Origin: Methylopila sp. M107
Lineage (GTDB): Bacteria; Pseudomonadota; Alphaproteobacteria; Rhizobiales; Methylopilaceae
Length of the DNA: 64,000 nucleotides
NCBI RefSeq assembly: GCF_000384475.1
Contig: NZ_ARWB01000001.1
Location: forward strand, 1,032,022-1,096,021
Direction: 5' to 3'
Every line of letters begins with the position of its first letter. Position 1 is the first letter of the stretch. The notes below the pieces were generated by a model. The model was given only the letters and a program-made list of their open reading frames with translations. It had not been told where the DNA came from and made no database searches. The position numbers and the translations under genes were made by a program. Below are positions 15,136 through 47,400 of this stretch, piece after piece.

Positions 15136-15209
15136 TGGAGGCCACGCCCGGAATCGAACCGGGATACAAGGATTTGCAGTCCTCTGCGTAACCATTCCGC
15201 CACGTGGCC
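15136..15209 (-). tRNA. tRNA-Cys (GCA)
   Basis: A 74-base cloverleaf on the minus strand with an encoded CCA end. The acceptor stem GGCCACG pairs with CGTGGCC, the discriminator is U73, the anticodon stem GAGGA/TCCTT frames the loop CTGCAAA (anticodon GCA), and the T arm is CCCGG-TTCGATT-CCGGG. The rest of the 469-bp gap 14944-15412 has no further gene. A half-copy of a palindromic repeat (CGTCCGGCTTCGCCGGGCAT) lies near 15039. Confidence 0.97.
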
Positions 15210-30278: not shown

Positions 30279-33005
<2,727 letters not shown>

Positions 33006-33265
33006 GGACTGGCCGGCTCCGGTTGCGGCAAGCGAGCCGCAGGCCGGCGCCGTCCTGCCCGCTCGGACAGGTCCGCGAAGGCGGGCGTGACGCGGGAGCG
33101 TGACGCTCGTGGGCTGCGGTCAGATGACCGAAGCCAGTGCTGACGAGCGCCGCCGGGCAAGACGTCCGGTCCCGCGCCGCCACTCCCCAAGCGGCTGAAA
33201 TCGTTAACCTTGACCACGCGTTAAGGGTTGCTGCGCGCGATCCCACATGCGAAATTTCCAGCGTC

Positions 33266-33340
33266 GGCCCGGTGGAGGAATGGCTACTCAGGGGACGGGA
33301 ACGTTCTCGCATCCTGGTTCAAATCCAGGCTGGGCCTCCA
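33266..33340 (+). tRNA. Non-canonical tRNA-Cys-like RNA with altered anticodon arm
   Basis: A 75-base cloverleaf-like RNA. The acceptor GGCCCGG pairs with CTGGGCC (one G-U), followed by U73 and encoded CCA. The D arm GAG-GAATGGCTA-CTC and the T arm CCTGG-TTCAAAT-CCAGG are intact. Outside the anticodon loop it matches the tRNA-Cys at 15136-15209 in about 52 of 67 positions by my count. The differences in the acceptor, D and T stems are mostly compensatory, so the fold is under selection. The anticodon arm is abnormal. GGGGA pairs with TTCTC around an 8-base loop CGGGAACG (or a 6-base GGGAAC loop if C-G also pairs), with G at the position of the universal U33. It cannot be a standard elongator tRNA. 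A perfect terminator follows after 6 bases, and TTGACC at 33210 could be a -35 element. Confidence 0.75.
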
Positions 33341-33346
33341 GATTTG

Positions 33347-33384
33347 AAACGGCGTTCCTGAGGGCTCGGGAACGCCGTTTTTCT
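33347..33384 (+). terminator. Rho-independent terminator of the tRNA-like gene
   Basis: An 11-bp perfect hairpin (arms AACGGCGTTCC and GGAACGCCGTT, 10-base loop) running into TTTTTCTT. It is the clearest intrinsic terminator in the window and shows that the 33266-33340 RNA is a transcription unit of its own. Confidence 0.93.
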
Positions 33385-33507
33385 TGGCGGGGACCGCCGA
33401 GCGATCCGAATGAGTCAAAAGAAGTCGCCCGGCCGCTCCCCATGCGGCCGGGCGTCCTCGGGCGTCTCCGACACGGAGAGGGGCGGGTATCCGTGACCGG
33501 TCGCGTT

Positions 33508-33696: not shown

Positions 33697-33904
33697 GCGC
33701 GAGCTCCCTCGTTGTTTCGATGGCCGGCATGCTAGGCGACGCGACTGAACCTTAGCCGGTCCCGGCATTCATCCGGCGTTCACCGCCTTGCGGCCGACCC
33801 GACGGGCGGGGTACAGACGGCGGCTTGTCAGCGGGCGGACCTTCTTGAAGGAGGCCGCCTGCGCGTCGTCCGAAGGGTCGGATCGGCCATCGCTAAGGGG
33901 ACAG

Positions 33905-34402
33905 ATGCAGCGCATCGCCTTCTATCCGGGCTCGTTCGATCCCGTGACGAACGGCCATCTCGATGTGGCGGCGCGCGCGTGCCGGCTCGCCGACAGGCTC
34001 GTCGTCGCGATCGGCGTGCATCACGGCAAGGCGCCGATGTTTTCGGTCGAGGAGCGCCGCGAGATGCTGGGCGAAACGCTCGCGGTCGTGGCCGAAAAGG
34101 CCGGCGTCGCATTCGAGGTGCGCACCTTTGACGGGCTGGTGGTCCAGGCGGCGCGCGACGCCGGGGCGTCGATCCTGGTCCGCGGCGTCCGCGACGGGAC
34201 CGATTTCGACTACGAGGTGCAGATGGCCGGCATGAACGCCGAGATGGCCCCGGACGTCACGACTGTGCTTTTGCCGCCGTCGGCGTCCGTCCGCTCGATC
34301 AGCGCCACATTTGTCCGGCAGATCGCGTCGATGGGCGGCGACGTGTCGTCCTTCGCGCCGCCGTCGGTGGTCGCGCGCCTCGCGCGGCGTTTGGAAAAGT
34401 GA
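33905..34402 (+). CDS. coaD: Phosphopantetheine adenylyltransferase
   Basis: A 165-residue nucleotidyltransferase with the conserved start [15 protein letters not shown] (the HxGH-type motif is NGH) and the C-terminal motif SISATFVR. It transfers AMP from ATP to 4'-phosphopantetheine, the fourth step of coenzyme A synthesis. The ATG at 33905 is preceded by AAGGGGAC. It leads a run of same-strand genes (two cyclophilins, a transporter, queA, tgt). Confidence 0.97.
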
Positions 34403-44467: not shown

Positions 44468-47400
44468 ATGGCGCAGCGCAGGGAGGATGCTTCCCCGATG
44501 ATCGGCGACATTTCGCGACGGCAGTTCTTGAGAACTGCAGGAGCGGGCATCGCCGGGACGACGCTCGGAGCGATGGGCTTCGGCGGCGCCGAACAGGCTT
44601 TGGCCCAATCGGTGCGGCCCTTCAAGCTCGCGAAGACGACGGAGACCCGGAACACCTGCCCGTACTGCTCGGTTGCCTGCGGCGTCATCATGTATGGCAA
44701 GGGCGACGGCACGGCCGAGAACAAGCAGGCCGTGATGCACATCGAGGGCGACCCGGACCATCCGGTGAACCGCGGCACGCTCTGCCCCAAGGGCGCCGCG
44801 CTGCTCGACTTCGTGAAGTCCGACACGCGCCTCAAATATCCGATGCAGCGCAAGCCTGGCTCCGACAAGTTCGAGCGGGTTTCGTGGGACGTGGCGCTCG
44901 ACCGCATCGCGCGGCTCATGAAGGACGACCGCGACAAGAACTTCGTCGGCCAGAACAAGGACGGCGTGACGGTCAACCGCTGGACCACGACCGGCTTCCT
45001 CGCCGCGTCCGCGACGACCAACGAGACGGCGACGCTGACCTGGAAGGTCGTGCGGTCGACCGGCATGGTGGTGTTCGACAACCAGGCGCGCGTTTGACAC
45101 GGACCGACGGTGGCGAGTCTCGCCCCAACATTCGGTCGCGGCGCGATGACGAACTCCTGGGGCGACATCGGTCATACCGATCTCGTCGTGGTGATGGGCG
45201 GCAACGCTGCGGAAGCGCATCCGTGCGGATTCAAATGGGTCGTTGAGGCGAAAGCCAATCGCGGCGCGAAACTTATCGTCGTCGATCCGCGCTTCACGCG
45301 GACGGCTTCGGTCGCGGACTTCTATTGTCCGATCCGGCCCGGCACCGACATCGCCTTCCTCGGCGGCGTCATCAAGTATCTGCTCGACAACGACAAGATC
45401 CAGCACGAATACGTCAAGAACTACACGAACGTCGCCTATCTGGTGAAGCCCGAGTTCGGCTTCTCGGAAGGGCTCTTCACGGGCTACGACGAGACGAAGC
45501 GCGGCTACGACATGTCCAACTGGGAGTACCAGCTGGGCGACGACGGCTTCGCCAAGCTCGACGTGACGCTGCAGGATCCGAACTGCGTCTTCCAGCTGAT
45601 GAAGAAGCACTTTGCGATCTACACGCCGGAGCTGGTCGAGAAGATCTGCGGTTCCCCGAAGGACAAGTTCCTGAAGGTCGCCGAGATGATCGCGACATGC
45701 TCGACGCCGACCAAGACCATGACGTCGATGTACGCGCTCGGCTGGACCCAGCATTCCAAGGGGTCGCAGAACATCCGCTGCATGGCGATGATCCAGCTGC
45801 TTCTCGGCAATATCGGCGTCCGGGGCGGCGGCATGAACGCGCTCCGCGGTCATTCCAACATCCAGGGGCTTACCGACCTCGGCCTGATGTCCAACCTGCT
45901 CCCCGGCTACATGACGATGCCGACGGAGAAGGAGCCGGACTTCAACGCCTACATGTCGACCAGAGGGTTCAAACCCTTGCGGCCGAACCAGATGAGCTTC
46001 TGGCAGAACTACAAGAAGTTCTACGTGTCGTTCGCCAAGTCCATGTGGGCCGACAAGGCGACCGCGGAGAACAACTGGGCCTATGACTGGCTGCCGAAGC
46101 TCGACGTGACCTACGACATCCTGCGCGCCTTCGACCTGATGGGTCAGGGCAAGATGACGGGCTATTTCTGCCAGGGCTTCAACCCGCTGATGACCTTCCC
46201 CAACCGGGGCAAGATCACCGAGGGGCTGTCGAAGCTGAAATTCCTCGTCACCATGGACCCGCTCGACACCGAGACCTCGCGCTTCTGGGAGAACCACGGC
46301 GAGTACAACGACGTCCGGACGGCCGACATCCAGACGGAGGTGTTCCAGCTGCCGACGAGCTGCTTCGCGGAGGACGAGGGCAGCCTCGTCAATTCCGGGC
46401 GCTGGCTGCAATGGCACTATCCGGGCCAGGAGCCGATCTTCGAGGCGAAGTTCGACACCTGGATCATGGCGCAGCTCCACCTGCGGCTGAAGGCGCTCTA
46501 CAAGACGGAAGGCGGCGCGTTCGCCGACCCGATCGTCAACCTCAACTGGCCCTACGCCAATCCGGAAGACCCGACGCCCCAGGAACTGGCGCGGGAGATG
46601 AACGGCTCGGCGCTGGGCGACGTGTTCGACCCGAAGGACGCGACCAAGGTCATCGTCCAGAAGGGCAAGCAGCTCGACGGCTTCGCGCAGCTGCGCGACG
46701 ACGGCTCCACGCAGAGCTTCTGCTGGATCTACGCCGGCTGCTGGACCGAGGCCGGCAACAACATGGCCAGGCGCGACAAGACCGACCCGGAAGGGGCGGG
46801 CCTGTCGCCGAAATGGGCCTGGGCGTGGCCGGCGAACCGCCGGATCCTCTACAACCGCGCCTCCGCGGACCCGTCCGGCAAGCCGTGGGACGACACCCGC
46901 AAGCTCGTCTACTGGACGGGCGAAAAGTGGGGCGGCATCGACGTGCCGGACTACAACCCGACCTTCAAGCCGGAGCAGGGCGTCGGGCCCTTCATCATGA
47001 ACCCGGAGGGCGTCGCACGGTTCTTCTCCCGCAAGATGATGCGGGATGGGCCGTTCCCGACCCACTACGAGCCGTTCGAGAGCCCGGTGGCGAACGCGAT
47101 CGCGCCGAAGATCCGCGGCAATCCCGCCGCGCGCATCTTCAAGGCCGACTTCGCGGCGCTCGGCTCGTCCGACAAGTACCCGTATGTCGGCACGAGCTAC
47201 CGGCTGACCGAGCACTTCCACCAGTGGACCAAGCACGTCTGGGTCAACGCGGTGCTGCAGCCGGAATTTTTCGTCGAGATCTCGGAAGAACTCGCGAAGG
47301 AGAAGGGCATCGTGAAGGGGGGCTGGGTGCGCGTCTGGTCCAACCGCGGATCGGTCAAGGCCAAGGCGGTGGTCACCAAGCGCATCAAGCCGCTGATCGT

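Follow-up and report, generated by a model that had tools for sequence, protein, structure and literature searches.

The window, a 64,000-nucleotide stretch of the Methylopila sp. M107 genome, contains on its plus strand, at 33266..33340, a 75-nt tRNA-Cys-like RNA with an encoded CCA end. This assignment is supported by ARAGORN, by the presence of an orthologue in each of the 13 genomes of the genus (the Methylopila/Hansschlegelia/Chenggangzhangella group) and by covariation, and the RNA is designated tRNA-Cys* here. The gene lies between an upstream open reading frame that we take to be gyrA (30279..33005, plus strand) and a downstream one that is presumably coaD, coding for a phosphopantetheine adenylyltransferase-like protein (33788..34402, plus strand). 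With tblastn, gyrA was found within 1.5 kb on the 5' side in 12/13 genus loci, coaD within the same distance on the 3' side in 11/13, and at least one of them in all 13, which indicates that the 13 copies are orthologues at one locus. A canonical tRNA-Cys with the anticodon GCA, the decoding paralogue, is located at 15136..15209 on the minus strand, where it was recognized by the Rfam scan and called tRNA-Cys by ARAGORN. The ARAGORN call at 33266-33340 (+) was 'tRNA-??? (ggaa)', with no isotype, and the Rfam tRNA model did not list tRNA-Cys* at E ≤ 1 in the window or at E ≤ 10 in the genome.

tRNA-Cys* has intact acceptor, D and T arms and an encoded CCA, as an earlier sequence-only reading of this DNA had stated. 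The 5' strand of the 7-bp acceptor stem, GGCCCGG (33266..33272, +), pairs with 33330-33336 and was identical in 13/13 genomes. The D arm (33275..33289, +) has the stem GAG...CTC, which is GGG...CCC or CTC in relatives, and the GG of the D loop is kept. A variable region of 4 nt precedes the T arm, CCTGG-TTCAAAT-CCAGG (33313..33329, +), which has a loop of the TTC type and is supported by the genus alignment and covariation. U73, the discriminator base of tRNA-Cys, and the encoded CCA occupy 33337..33340 (+) and were present in 13/13 genomes of the genus. If the anticodon loop is left out, tRNA-Cys* shares 52 of 67 positions with the tRNA-Cys at 15136-15209 (-), exactly the figure previously given, and the stem swaps on which the earlier argument for a conserved fold was built (D stem GCG/CGC to GAG/CTC; T stem CCCGG/CCGGG to CCTGG/CCAGG) are present in the sequence.

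The anticodon arm (33291..33308, +) is remodelled. RNAalifold, run without a given structure, closed an inner G-C pair, yielding a 7-bp stem (33291-33297/33302-33308) that pair counts also support, capped by a GGAA tetraloop (33298-33301, +) with neither U33 nor GCA. GGAA fits the GNRA class of tetraloops. The sequence-only reading was right that the loop CGGGAACG lacks U33, but the eight or six bases that it assigned to the loop do not agree with this fold, in which the effective loop is 4 nt. An alternative drawing of the 18-nt arm gives a stem of 5 bp and a loop of 8 nt. The minimum-energy fold computed for the window RNA alone is not a cloverleaf; the cloverleaf given here derives from the alignment and not from single-sequence folding. 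An RNA of this structure would be unable to present an anticodon to the ribosome.

The 5' intergenic region (33206..33265, +) is a possible promoter. TTGC or TTGT begins 37-40 nt upstream of the gene in 13/13 genus genomes and is a possible -35 element; a promoter scan gave no match to the sigma-70 consensus upstream of the window copy. Behind the gene, a terminator-like hairpin with a T tract (33347..33384, +) was detected by an inverted-repeat scan, by folding and at 13/13 loci. Its inverted repeat (33347-33362/33365-33380; 16 bp, 94%) ends in T, and the folding energy of -26.4 kcal/mol (z = -5.88) was not equalled or bettered by any of 200 shuffles. With a script that capped the stem at 15 bp, a hairpin of 14-15 bp with at most one mismatch was found 3' of the gene in all 13 genus genomes, with a weak T tract in several of them. 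The terminator scan of the window did not list a plus-strand hairpin after tRNA-Cys*, probably because the stem extends into the T tract. What had been called a perfect intrinsic terminator is therefore a strong hairpin, for which 'perfect' is an overstatement under the rule of that scan. Pairing of the anticodon loop with an arm of the terminator was considered, since both contain CGGGAACG in the window copy, and was rejected; the complementarity is missing in several relatives and was therefore treated as chance. A second GC-rich hairpin, terminator-like on the minus strand, is located between the terminator and coaD (33421-33459).

Two further elements of the window were recorded. A SECIS_3 element (45092-45150, +; 82.7 bits, E = 4.2e-18) accompanies an in-frame UGA at 45095-45097 (...NQARV-U-HGPTV...), in what is presumably a gene for a selenocysteine formate dehydrogenase, as expected for such a gene. 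A selenocysteine link of tRNA-Cys*, considered because the SECIS element is in the same window, was rejected, as tRNA-Cys* lacks both a UCA anticodon and an 8-bp acceptor stem. An inverted repeat of 45 nt (37331-37375/37431-37475; 96% complementary, 55-nt spacer) is flanked by open reading frames that we take to be queA and tgt, and the Rfam 'mir' matches at this repeat are probably palindrome artefacts.

When the Methylopila sp. M107 genome and 60 relatives were searched, full-length matches with 79-100% identity were found in 13/13 genomes of the genus. One weaker full-length match was found in another family (genome G051), the remaining rows were short fragments (E = 0.019 or worse), and a plasmid collection gave no match to tRNA-Cys*. 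The gene is missing from none of these close relatives, its stems are intact in 13/13, and the loop G-GGAA-C is the same in 13/13, which speaks against a sequence error.

Conservation within the genus was highly uneven. Differences per site among the 13 genomes were 0 in the acceptor 5' strand, the CCA end and GGGAAC, 0.02 in the D arm, 0.04 in the acceptor 3' strand and 0.05 in the T arm, compared to 0.32 and 0.48 in the two strands of the anticodon stem and about 0.6 in the ungapped flanks. Variation was present in 10 of the 12 columns of the outer six anticodon-stem pairs and in none of the six loop columns (P = 0.0015 that all six are spared under random placement of 10 variable columns among the 18 of the arm). 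On the named cloverleaf, 242 of 242 pair cells in the 11 distinct genus sequences were standard, with double changes at five pairs; RNAalifold on the genus alignment reported four pairs with double changes. Covariation as high as that observed was reached in 0/500 shuffles on four measures and in 9/500 on the fifth. A single switch of a loop-closing pair, C-G to U-A, has occurred within the genus. The sequence of the anticodon stem can drift provided that its shape is maintained, and the cap does not change. In these 13 genomes, canonical tRNA-Cys had only three variants, all with the loop CTGCAAA. These results show that the body of tRNA-Cys*, an old duplicate of tRNA-Cys, is kept by purifying selection, and the earlier view that the fold is under selection is supported by the retention of all pairs, with double changes, in 13/13 genomes.

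A decaying tRNA-Cys pseudogene is what the duplication of a housekeeping tRNA might leave behind, and the patchy distribution and variable anticodon arm of the gene, together with the lack of a perfect anticodon hairpin in 2 of 29 related genes parsed from the wider order (from a Salinarimonadaceae MAG and a Microvirga MAG), could be understood in this manner. However, broken stems or relaxed constraint were not seen in any of the 11 distinct genus sequences, in which all cells are paired and double changes occur, and the invariance of the acceptor 5' strand, loop and CCA in 13 genomes and the retention of the downstream hairpin are also contrary to decay. Covariation and conservation led to rejection of this explanation for the genus, and it is very improbable overall.

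In order to follow the gene beyond the genus, 397 genomes of the order were searched with a covariance model of the genus copies, and 306 had a match at E ≤ 1e-9. Most of the matches listed outside the genus had the 74-nt length of canonical tRNA-Cys, and all of those inspected were canonical. Second Cys-like genes were also found, with a GRCCCGG or similar acceptor strand, U73 and T-arm features as in tRNA-Cys*, and with odd anticodon arms. The sister genus g3 has the paralogue in 4/4 genomes, with the loops CGGCAG, CAGCAA (twice) and AUGAAA; none was seen in the single genome of the sister genus g2, a soft negative because the same search missed canonical tRNA-Cys elsewhere. Paralogue loops are GUGCAA and GUGCAG in Afifella and mostly GUGCAA, GUGCAU and AUGCAU in f35, a family of large genomes that is probably Bradyrhizobium and kin. 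The prediction that the loop would be conserved thus holds inside the genus, where it is invariant, and fails across genera, where loop sequences differ. Enterovirga and Salinarimonas also have paralogues, as do Microvirga, Methylobacterium and other MAGs. In the NCBI taxonomy, the Hyphomicrobiales include Methylopila, Enterovirga, Afifella, Salinarimonas and Microvirga.

The strict pattern for the paralogue was matched by at least 41 of 295 f35 genomes, in 5 of 47 genera, which is a lower bound as G183, G330 and G375 have 76-nt model matches and no pattern match. A GTDB contig scan returned 24 records in which the D arm is of the type found in this genus; the titles from genera other than those named above are, we assume, also Hyphomicrobiales. 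In a class-wide search with the family model, 2/385 genomes had matches beyond E = 1e-16, the Methylopila sp. M107 genome itself and G051, a bar that would miss weaker paralogues such as that of Enterovirga and makes the class-wide negative soft. Among 40 genomes chosen as one per family, 36 matched the model and 4 gave no match; a clear second Cys-like gene was found in three (G041, G045 and G052) and not in 37, negatives that are likewise soft, and weak second matches of 39.6-42.7 bits were found in G020 (three), G047, G048 and G056. Negative results of the first-look genome searches are soft because these searches missed canonical tRNA-Cys genes later found by direct pattern. The distribution of the paralogue in the Hyphomicrobiales is patchy.

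Other second copies of tRNA-Cys were encountered in these searches. L187 (G041, GUGCAA hexaloop) and L188 (G052, GUGCAUA loop) are divergent Cys-like second tRNAs on long branches and may be further, independent non-standard tRNA-Cys copies. L101, L102 and L103 (G198, G272 and G119), from another genus of the order, are second tRNA-Cys genes of another type; their D loop is shortened and their anticodon loop reads GUGCAAA.

The gene occupies different positions in different families. In f35 it is upstream of a gene that we take to be carB in 6/6 loci inspected, and directly upstream of the tRNA-like gene in the same 6/6 loci is an open reading frame that appears to code for a SAM methyltransferase-like protein. 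In g3 it is behind a presumed carB-greA pair in 4/4 loci; another position outside the genus is after an aminotransferase-like open reading frame. The proximity to carB in both f35 and g3 fits descent from a single old locus. No neighbour gene was common to all paralogue families among the loci compared, several of which are cut short on one side, and carB, greA and the SAM methyltransferase-like open reading frame, each considered as a linked partner, were rejected as they are not common to the other families. Protein matches between loci, for example between an Enterovirga open reading frame and those of g3, were weak (25-41% identity). These positions also bear on whether the RNA is a structural by-product, either an integration site or a stable RNA spacer or terminator element behind gyrA. 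The gene was intergenic in the loci inspected and tRNA genes often serve as integration sites, but the surroundings in the genus are constant, the loci in other families are different ones, and an integration site does not need pairing in the D or anticodon arm. Thus, a by-product of this kind hardly comes into consideration.

Features were parsed for 29 paralogues, labelled as such from acceptor, D-arm and loop features before any tree was made, and for 23 canonical tRNA-Cys. Closed anticodon loops were present in 25/29 paralogues (4 nt, n = 9; 6 nt, n = 16) versus 0/23 canonical genes; the script permits G-U pairs, and some 4-nt loops (e.g., that of G126) become 6-nt loops if a closing G-U is opened. 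The two copies in G104 have a 7-nt loop. Canonical loops were 7 nt in 19/23 and 5 nt in the 4/23 in which positions 32 and 38 can pair. A T stem of 6 bp was found in 15/29 paralogues and one of 5 bp in 23/23 canonical tRNA-Cys, so that approximately half of the family has a 13-bp acceptor/T branch, which is missing from the window genus and from f35. U73 was present in 29/29 paralogues, and all seven acceptor pairs were formed in 26 of the 27 members with acceptor output (6/7 in G015). In an alignment of 18 paralogues, fitted to the structure of a related model, all seven anticodon-stem pairs were double-changed and 93.6% of helix cells were paired.

A tree of 61 sequences was built from the tRNA body with the anticodon arm removed, which left only 52 columns and makes the tree weak; 5/13 genus paralogues and nine from f35 were sampled, two weak alignment rows (33 bits) were dropped, and nine further Cys-like second copies were labelled separately from the 29 paralogues. 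One branch (support, 96/91) separated 28/29 paralogues and two other rows from all 23 canonical tRNA-Cys. The two were the separately labelled copies G022b and G041b, which grouped with the paralogues, and the Salinarimonas paralogue fell on the canonical side. When the nine unassigned copies were counted as others, the starred branches forced three label changes and a single origin was recovered in 0% of 200 bootstraps. With paralogues and canonical rows alone, one clade was compatible with the data (p-AU, 0.484). A single origin of the paralogue family is consistent with part of this tree evidence and is not firm.

Canonical features that tRNA-Cys* retains include U73, CCA, a cloverleaf with a 7-bp acceptor and the TTC T loop; a 7-nt anticodon loop with U33 and GCA is lacking (G-GGAA-C in 13/13). 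This combination is that of a conserved duplicate freed from decoding. U33 is missing from the window genus, three of the four g3 members (G014, G016 and G017), G104, one Enterovirga and one of 41 f35 rows (G495). GCA has been lost in the window genus and in G015. Canonical tRNA-Cys was present in 13/13 genus genomes and 4/4 g3 genomes, and a direct pattern found it in 19/20 other genomes, the exception being the incomplete G104. The possibility that the paralogue is the sole tRNA-Cys of some f35 genomes had been raised by a first search, in which none was found in G051, G126, G205 and G364, and was rejected when the pattern found the canonical gene in 18/18. The presence of a normal tRNA-Cys alongside the paralogue in nearly all genomes in which it was sought and the loss of U33 in several lineages suggest that decoding is not what maintains the paralogues.

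It could nevertheless be proposed that the paralogue is an unusual decoding tRNA, with an open 8-base loop that reads cysteine codons or shifts the frame. The alternative drawing of the 18-nt arm with an 8-nt loop is in accordance with this proposal, as is the UGCA that most members outside family f1 keep in the loop, and such members could still decode weakly. However, neither GCA nor U33 is found in the genus, U33 has gone in several lineages, a normal tRNA-Cys is present in 19/20 genomes in which it was sought, and the C-G to U-A switch of a loop-closing pair in the genus indicates that the loop is closed and not 8 nt. Decoding is thus an improbable function for the family, and the frameshift tRNA that had been among the earlier suggestions is unlikely for the window copy, which has no U33 and keeps the pairs that close its loop.

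Whether tRNA-Cys* might be charged was evaluated from the cysteinyl-tRNA synthetases (CysRS) in the genomes. One full-length CysRS match was found per genus genome (13/13); the second, weak matches in 12/13 cover only profile positions ~241-300 and were taken to be other synthetases. According to passages of PMC7609411, which cites Pallanck 1992, CysRS uses the anticodon as a major determinant. The lack of GCA and the presence of one CysRS per genome suggest that charging of tRNA-Cys* may be poor in the genus. The same passages put CysRS enzymes without an anticodon-binding domain on record in the Desulfobacterales, and tolerance by CysRS is therefore possible. Among 40 genomes, only G059 (family f43) had no full-length CysRS (PF01406; best E = 2.2e-8, partial). 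This genome has a canonical-looking tRNA-Cys (L158), and the absence of the synthetase could be a gap, a search miss or a sign of another route to Cys-tRNA.

Enzymes that could accept cysteine from tRNA-Cys* were also sought. The PEARL/LanB domain (PF14028) was found in 0/40 genomes, a result that is uninformative because control genomes also gave 0. The MprF/LpiA-type aminoacyl-lipid synthase domain (PF09924) was found in 13/13 genus genomes (e.g., G000:C1:3461023-3461883), in 2/13 other paralogue carriers (g3, 1/4; Afifella, 1/2; f35, 0/6; G104, 0/1) and, among 14 genomes labelled paralogue-free, clearly in G056 and below the cut-off in G038. MprF was rejected as a family-wide partner, as the domain tracks the genus and not the wider family. 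Lipid aminoacylation is a conceivable use of tRNA-Cys* in the genus and is put forward as a hypothesis.

The evidence considered together indicates that tRNA-Cys* is very probably functional and non-decoding. This supports the sequence-only interpretation in part; the cysteine donation and the partner protein that it offered as possibilities are still possibilities. The parts that have been kept are those needed by processing enzymes, by a synthetase that checks the acceptor end and by tRNA-binding proteins, and what has been surrendered is the part that reads codons. The simplest interpretation is that the tRNA is retained either for its amino acid or for its body, and cysteine is the amino acid suggested by the acceptor end and U73. 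In this old duplicate of tRNA-Cys, the anticodon arm has been remodelled to give a longer stem and a small, closed loop. In the mechanism that we favor, the RNA would be transcribed from its own promoter and processed, and would be charged with cysteine by virtue of the tRNA-Cys acceptor end and U73. The closed arm, together with the 13-bp acceptor/T branch in many relatives, would exclude it from translation, and the cysteine would be handed to a putative enzyme outside the ribosome, in the manner of the staphylococcal non-ribosomal glycyl-tRNA. This whole mechanism, cysteine donation included, is assigned a probability of roughly 0.4. A broader version is offered tentatively, namely that the Hyphomicrobiales have a family of dedicated non-decoding cysteinyl-tRNAs, with the arm a closed tetraloop or a pinched hairpin, that serve an undescribed transfer of cysteine to a lipid, peptide, cofactor or cell wall; in the genus the GNRA loop may dock on the partner or the synthetase.

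The main alternative, only somewhat less probable, is that tRNA-Cys* is a tRNA-derived regulatory RNA that is uncharged or only incidentally charged and acts by titration or sensing and not by donating cysteine. Its body would then provide stability and a surface on which CysRS, a regulator that binds tRNA or an enzyme that modifies it could dock, and the arm with its GNRA cap would be an element that binds protein or RNA. The invariant GGAA tetraloop suggests a recognized or stabilized cap, the loss of GCA in the genus and in G015 argues against efficient charging, the gene has its own hairpin terminator, and the Bacillus cereus tRNAOther, as presented in parts of PMC3399842, is a precedent. 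However, every member parsed retains the acceptor end and U73, which is more than an uncharged small RNA seems to need, and the loops differ among families, so that no loop-specific target is common to them.

If cysteine donation, or alternatively regulation, is correct, a conserved case based on tRNA-Cys would imply a Cys-tRNA-dependent reaction that is not yet known or a new class of tRNA-derived regulators. Furthermore, tRNA-Cys*, with its free anticodon-stem sequence and nearly frozen body, is a natural test of how much of the constraint on a tRNA stems from decoding. To our knowledge, bacterial tRNAs kept for non-translational work are known in only a few cases. No description of tRNA-Cys* was found in open-licence PMC full texts, and an earlier mention in Mukai et al. 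2017 is possible.

Among known systems, the selC* tRNA-Cys and allo-tRNAs (Mukai et al. 2017, via PMC7609411) are also extra tRNA species, with U73 in selC*, and emerged from searches for unusual tRNAs. In the passages of PMC7609411 that describe them, selC* has an 8/4 branch, a longer variable arm and a GCA or UCA anticodon, with selB* or cysS* neighbours in some groups, whereas the tRNA-Cys* family has a 7/5 or 7/6 branch and a short variable region, and no anticodon in the genus. The 8-bp acceptor and long variable arm of tRNA-Sec and selC* are absent from tRNA-Cys* (7 bp and 4 nt), there is no selB* or cysS* neighbour within 1.5 kb (gyrA and coaD are there instead), and the 13 genus genomes have no second full-length CysRS. 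Membership in selC* or the allo-tRNAs was rejected on these differences in branch, variable region and neighbours. The yeast mitochondrial tRNA-Thr UAG with an 8-nt loop, as mentioned in PMC7609411, shares one extra nucleotide in the anticodon arm with tRNA-Cys* but decodes. In tRNA-Cys*, the extra base helps to form a pair and the loop is closed, in contrast to tRNAs with 8-nt loops. Frameshift suppressor tRNAs with 8-nt anticodon loops decode as well.

The non-ribosomal tRNA-Gly of Staphylococcus aureus, the donor for the pentaglycine bridge, is likewise an extra isoacceptor beside decoding copies, according to parts of PMC8007984. It is set aside for amino acid transfer outside the ribosome, which for tRNA-Cys* is a proposal only. 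It differs in carrying glycine, in keeping its UCC anticodon, in its altered D and T loops and in poor binding to EF-Tu, whereas tRNA-Cys* has a cysteine-type body, an altered anticodon arm and a normal T loop. The enzymes that use the staphylococcal tRNA are known. The B. cereus tRNAOther is, like tRNA-Cys*, a conserved tRNA-like RNA, and the sections of PMC3399842 that deal with it report that it acts outside translation, is poorly aminoacylated in vitro and is not on polysomes, and that its deletion alters cell-wall morphology and gene expression. It differs in having a Trp anticodon and weak lysine acceptance and in bordering a pathogenicity island (same sections of PMC3399842), whereas tRNA-Cys* has a tRNA-Cys body, no anticodon and a housekeeping locus, and is found in 13/13 genus genomes and in other families. 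By analogy, tRNA-Cys* may function most like the staphylococcal tRNA-Gly or the B. cereus tRNAOther, and it is a member of neither group.
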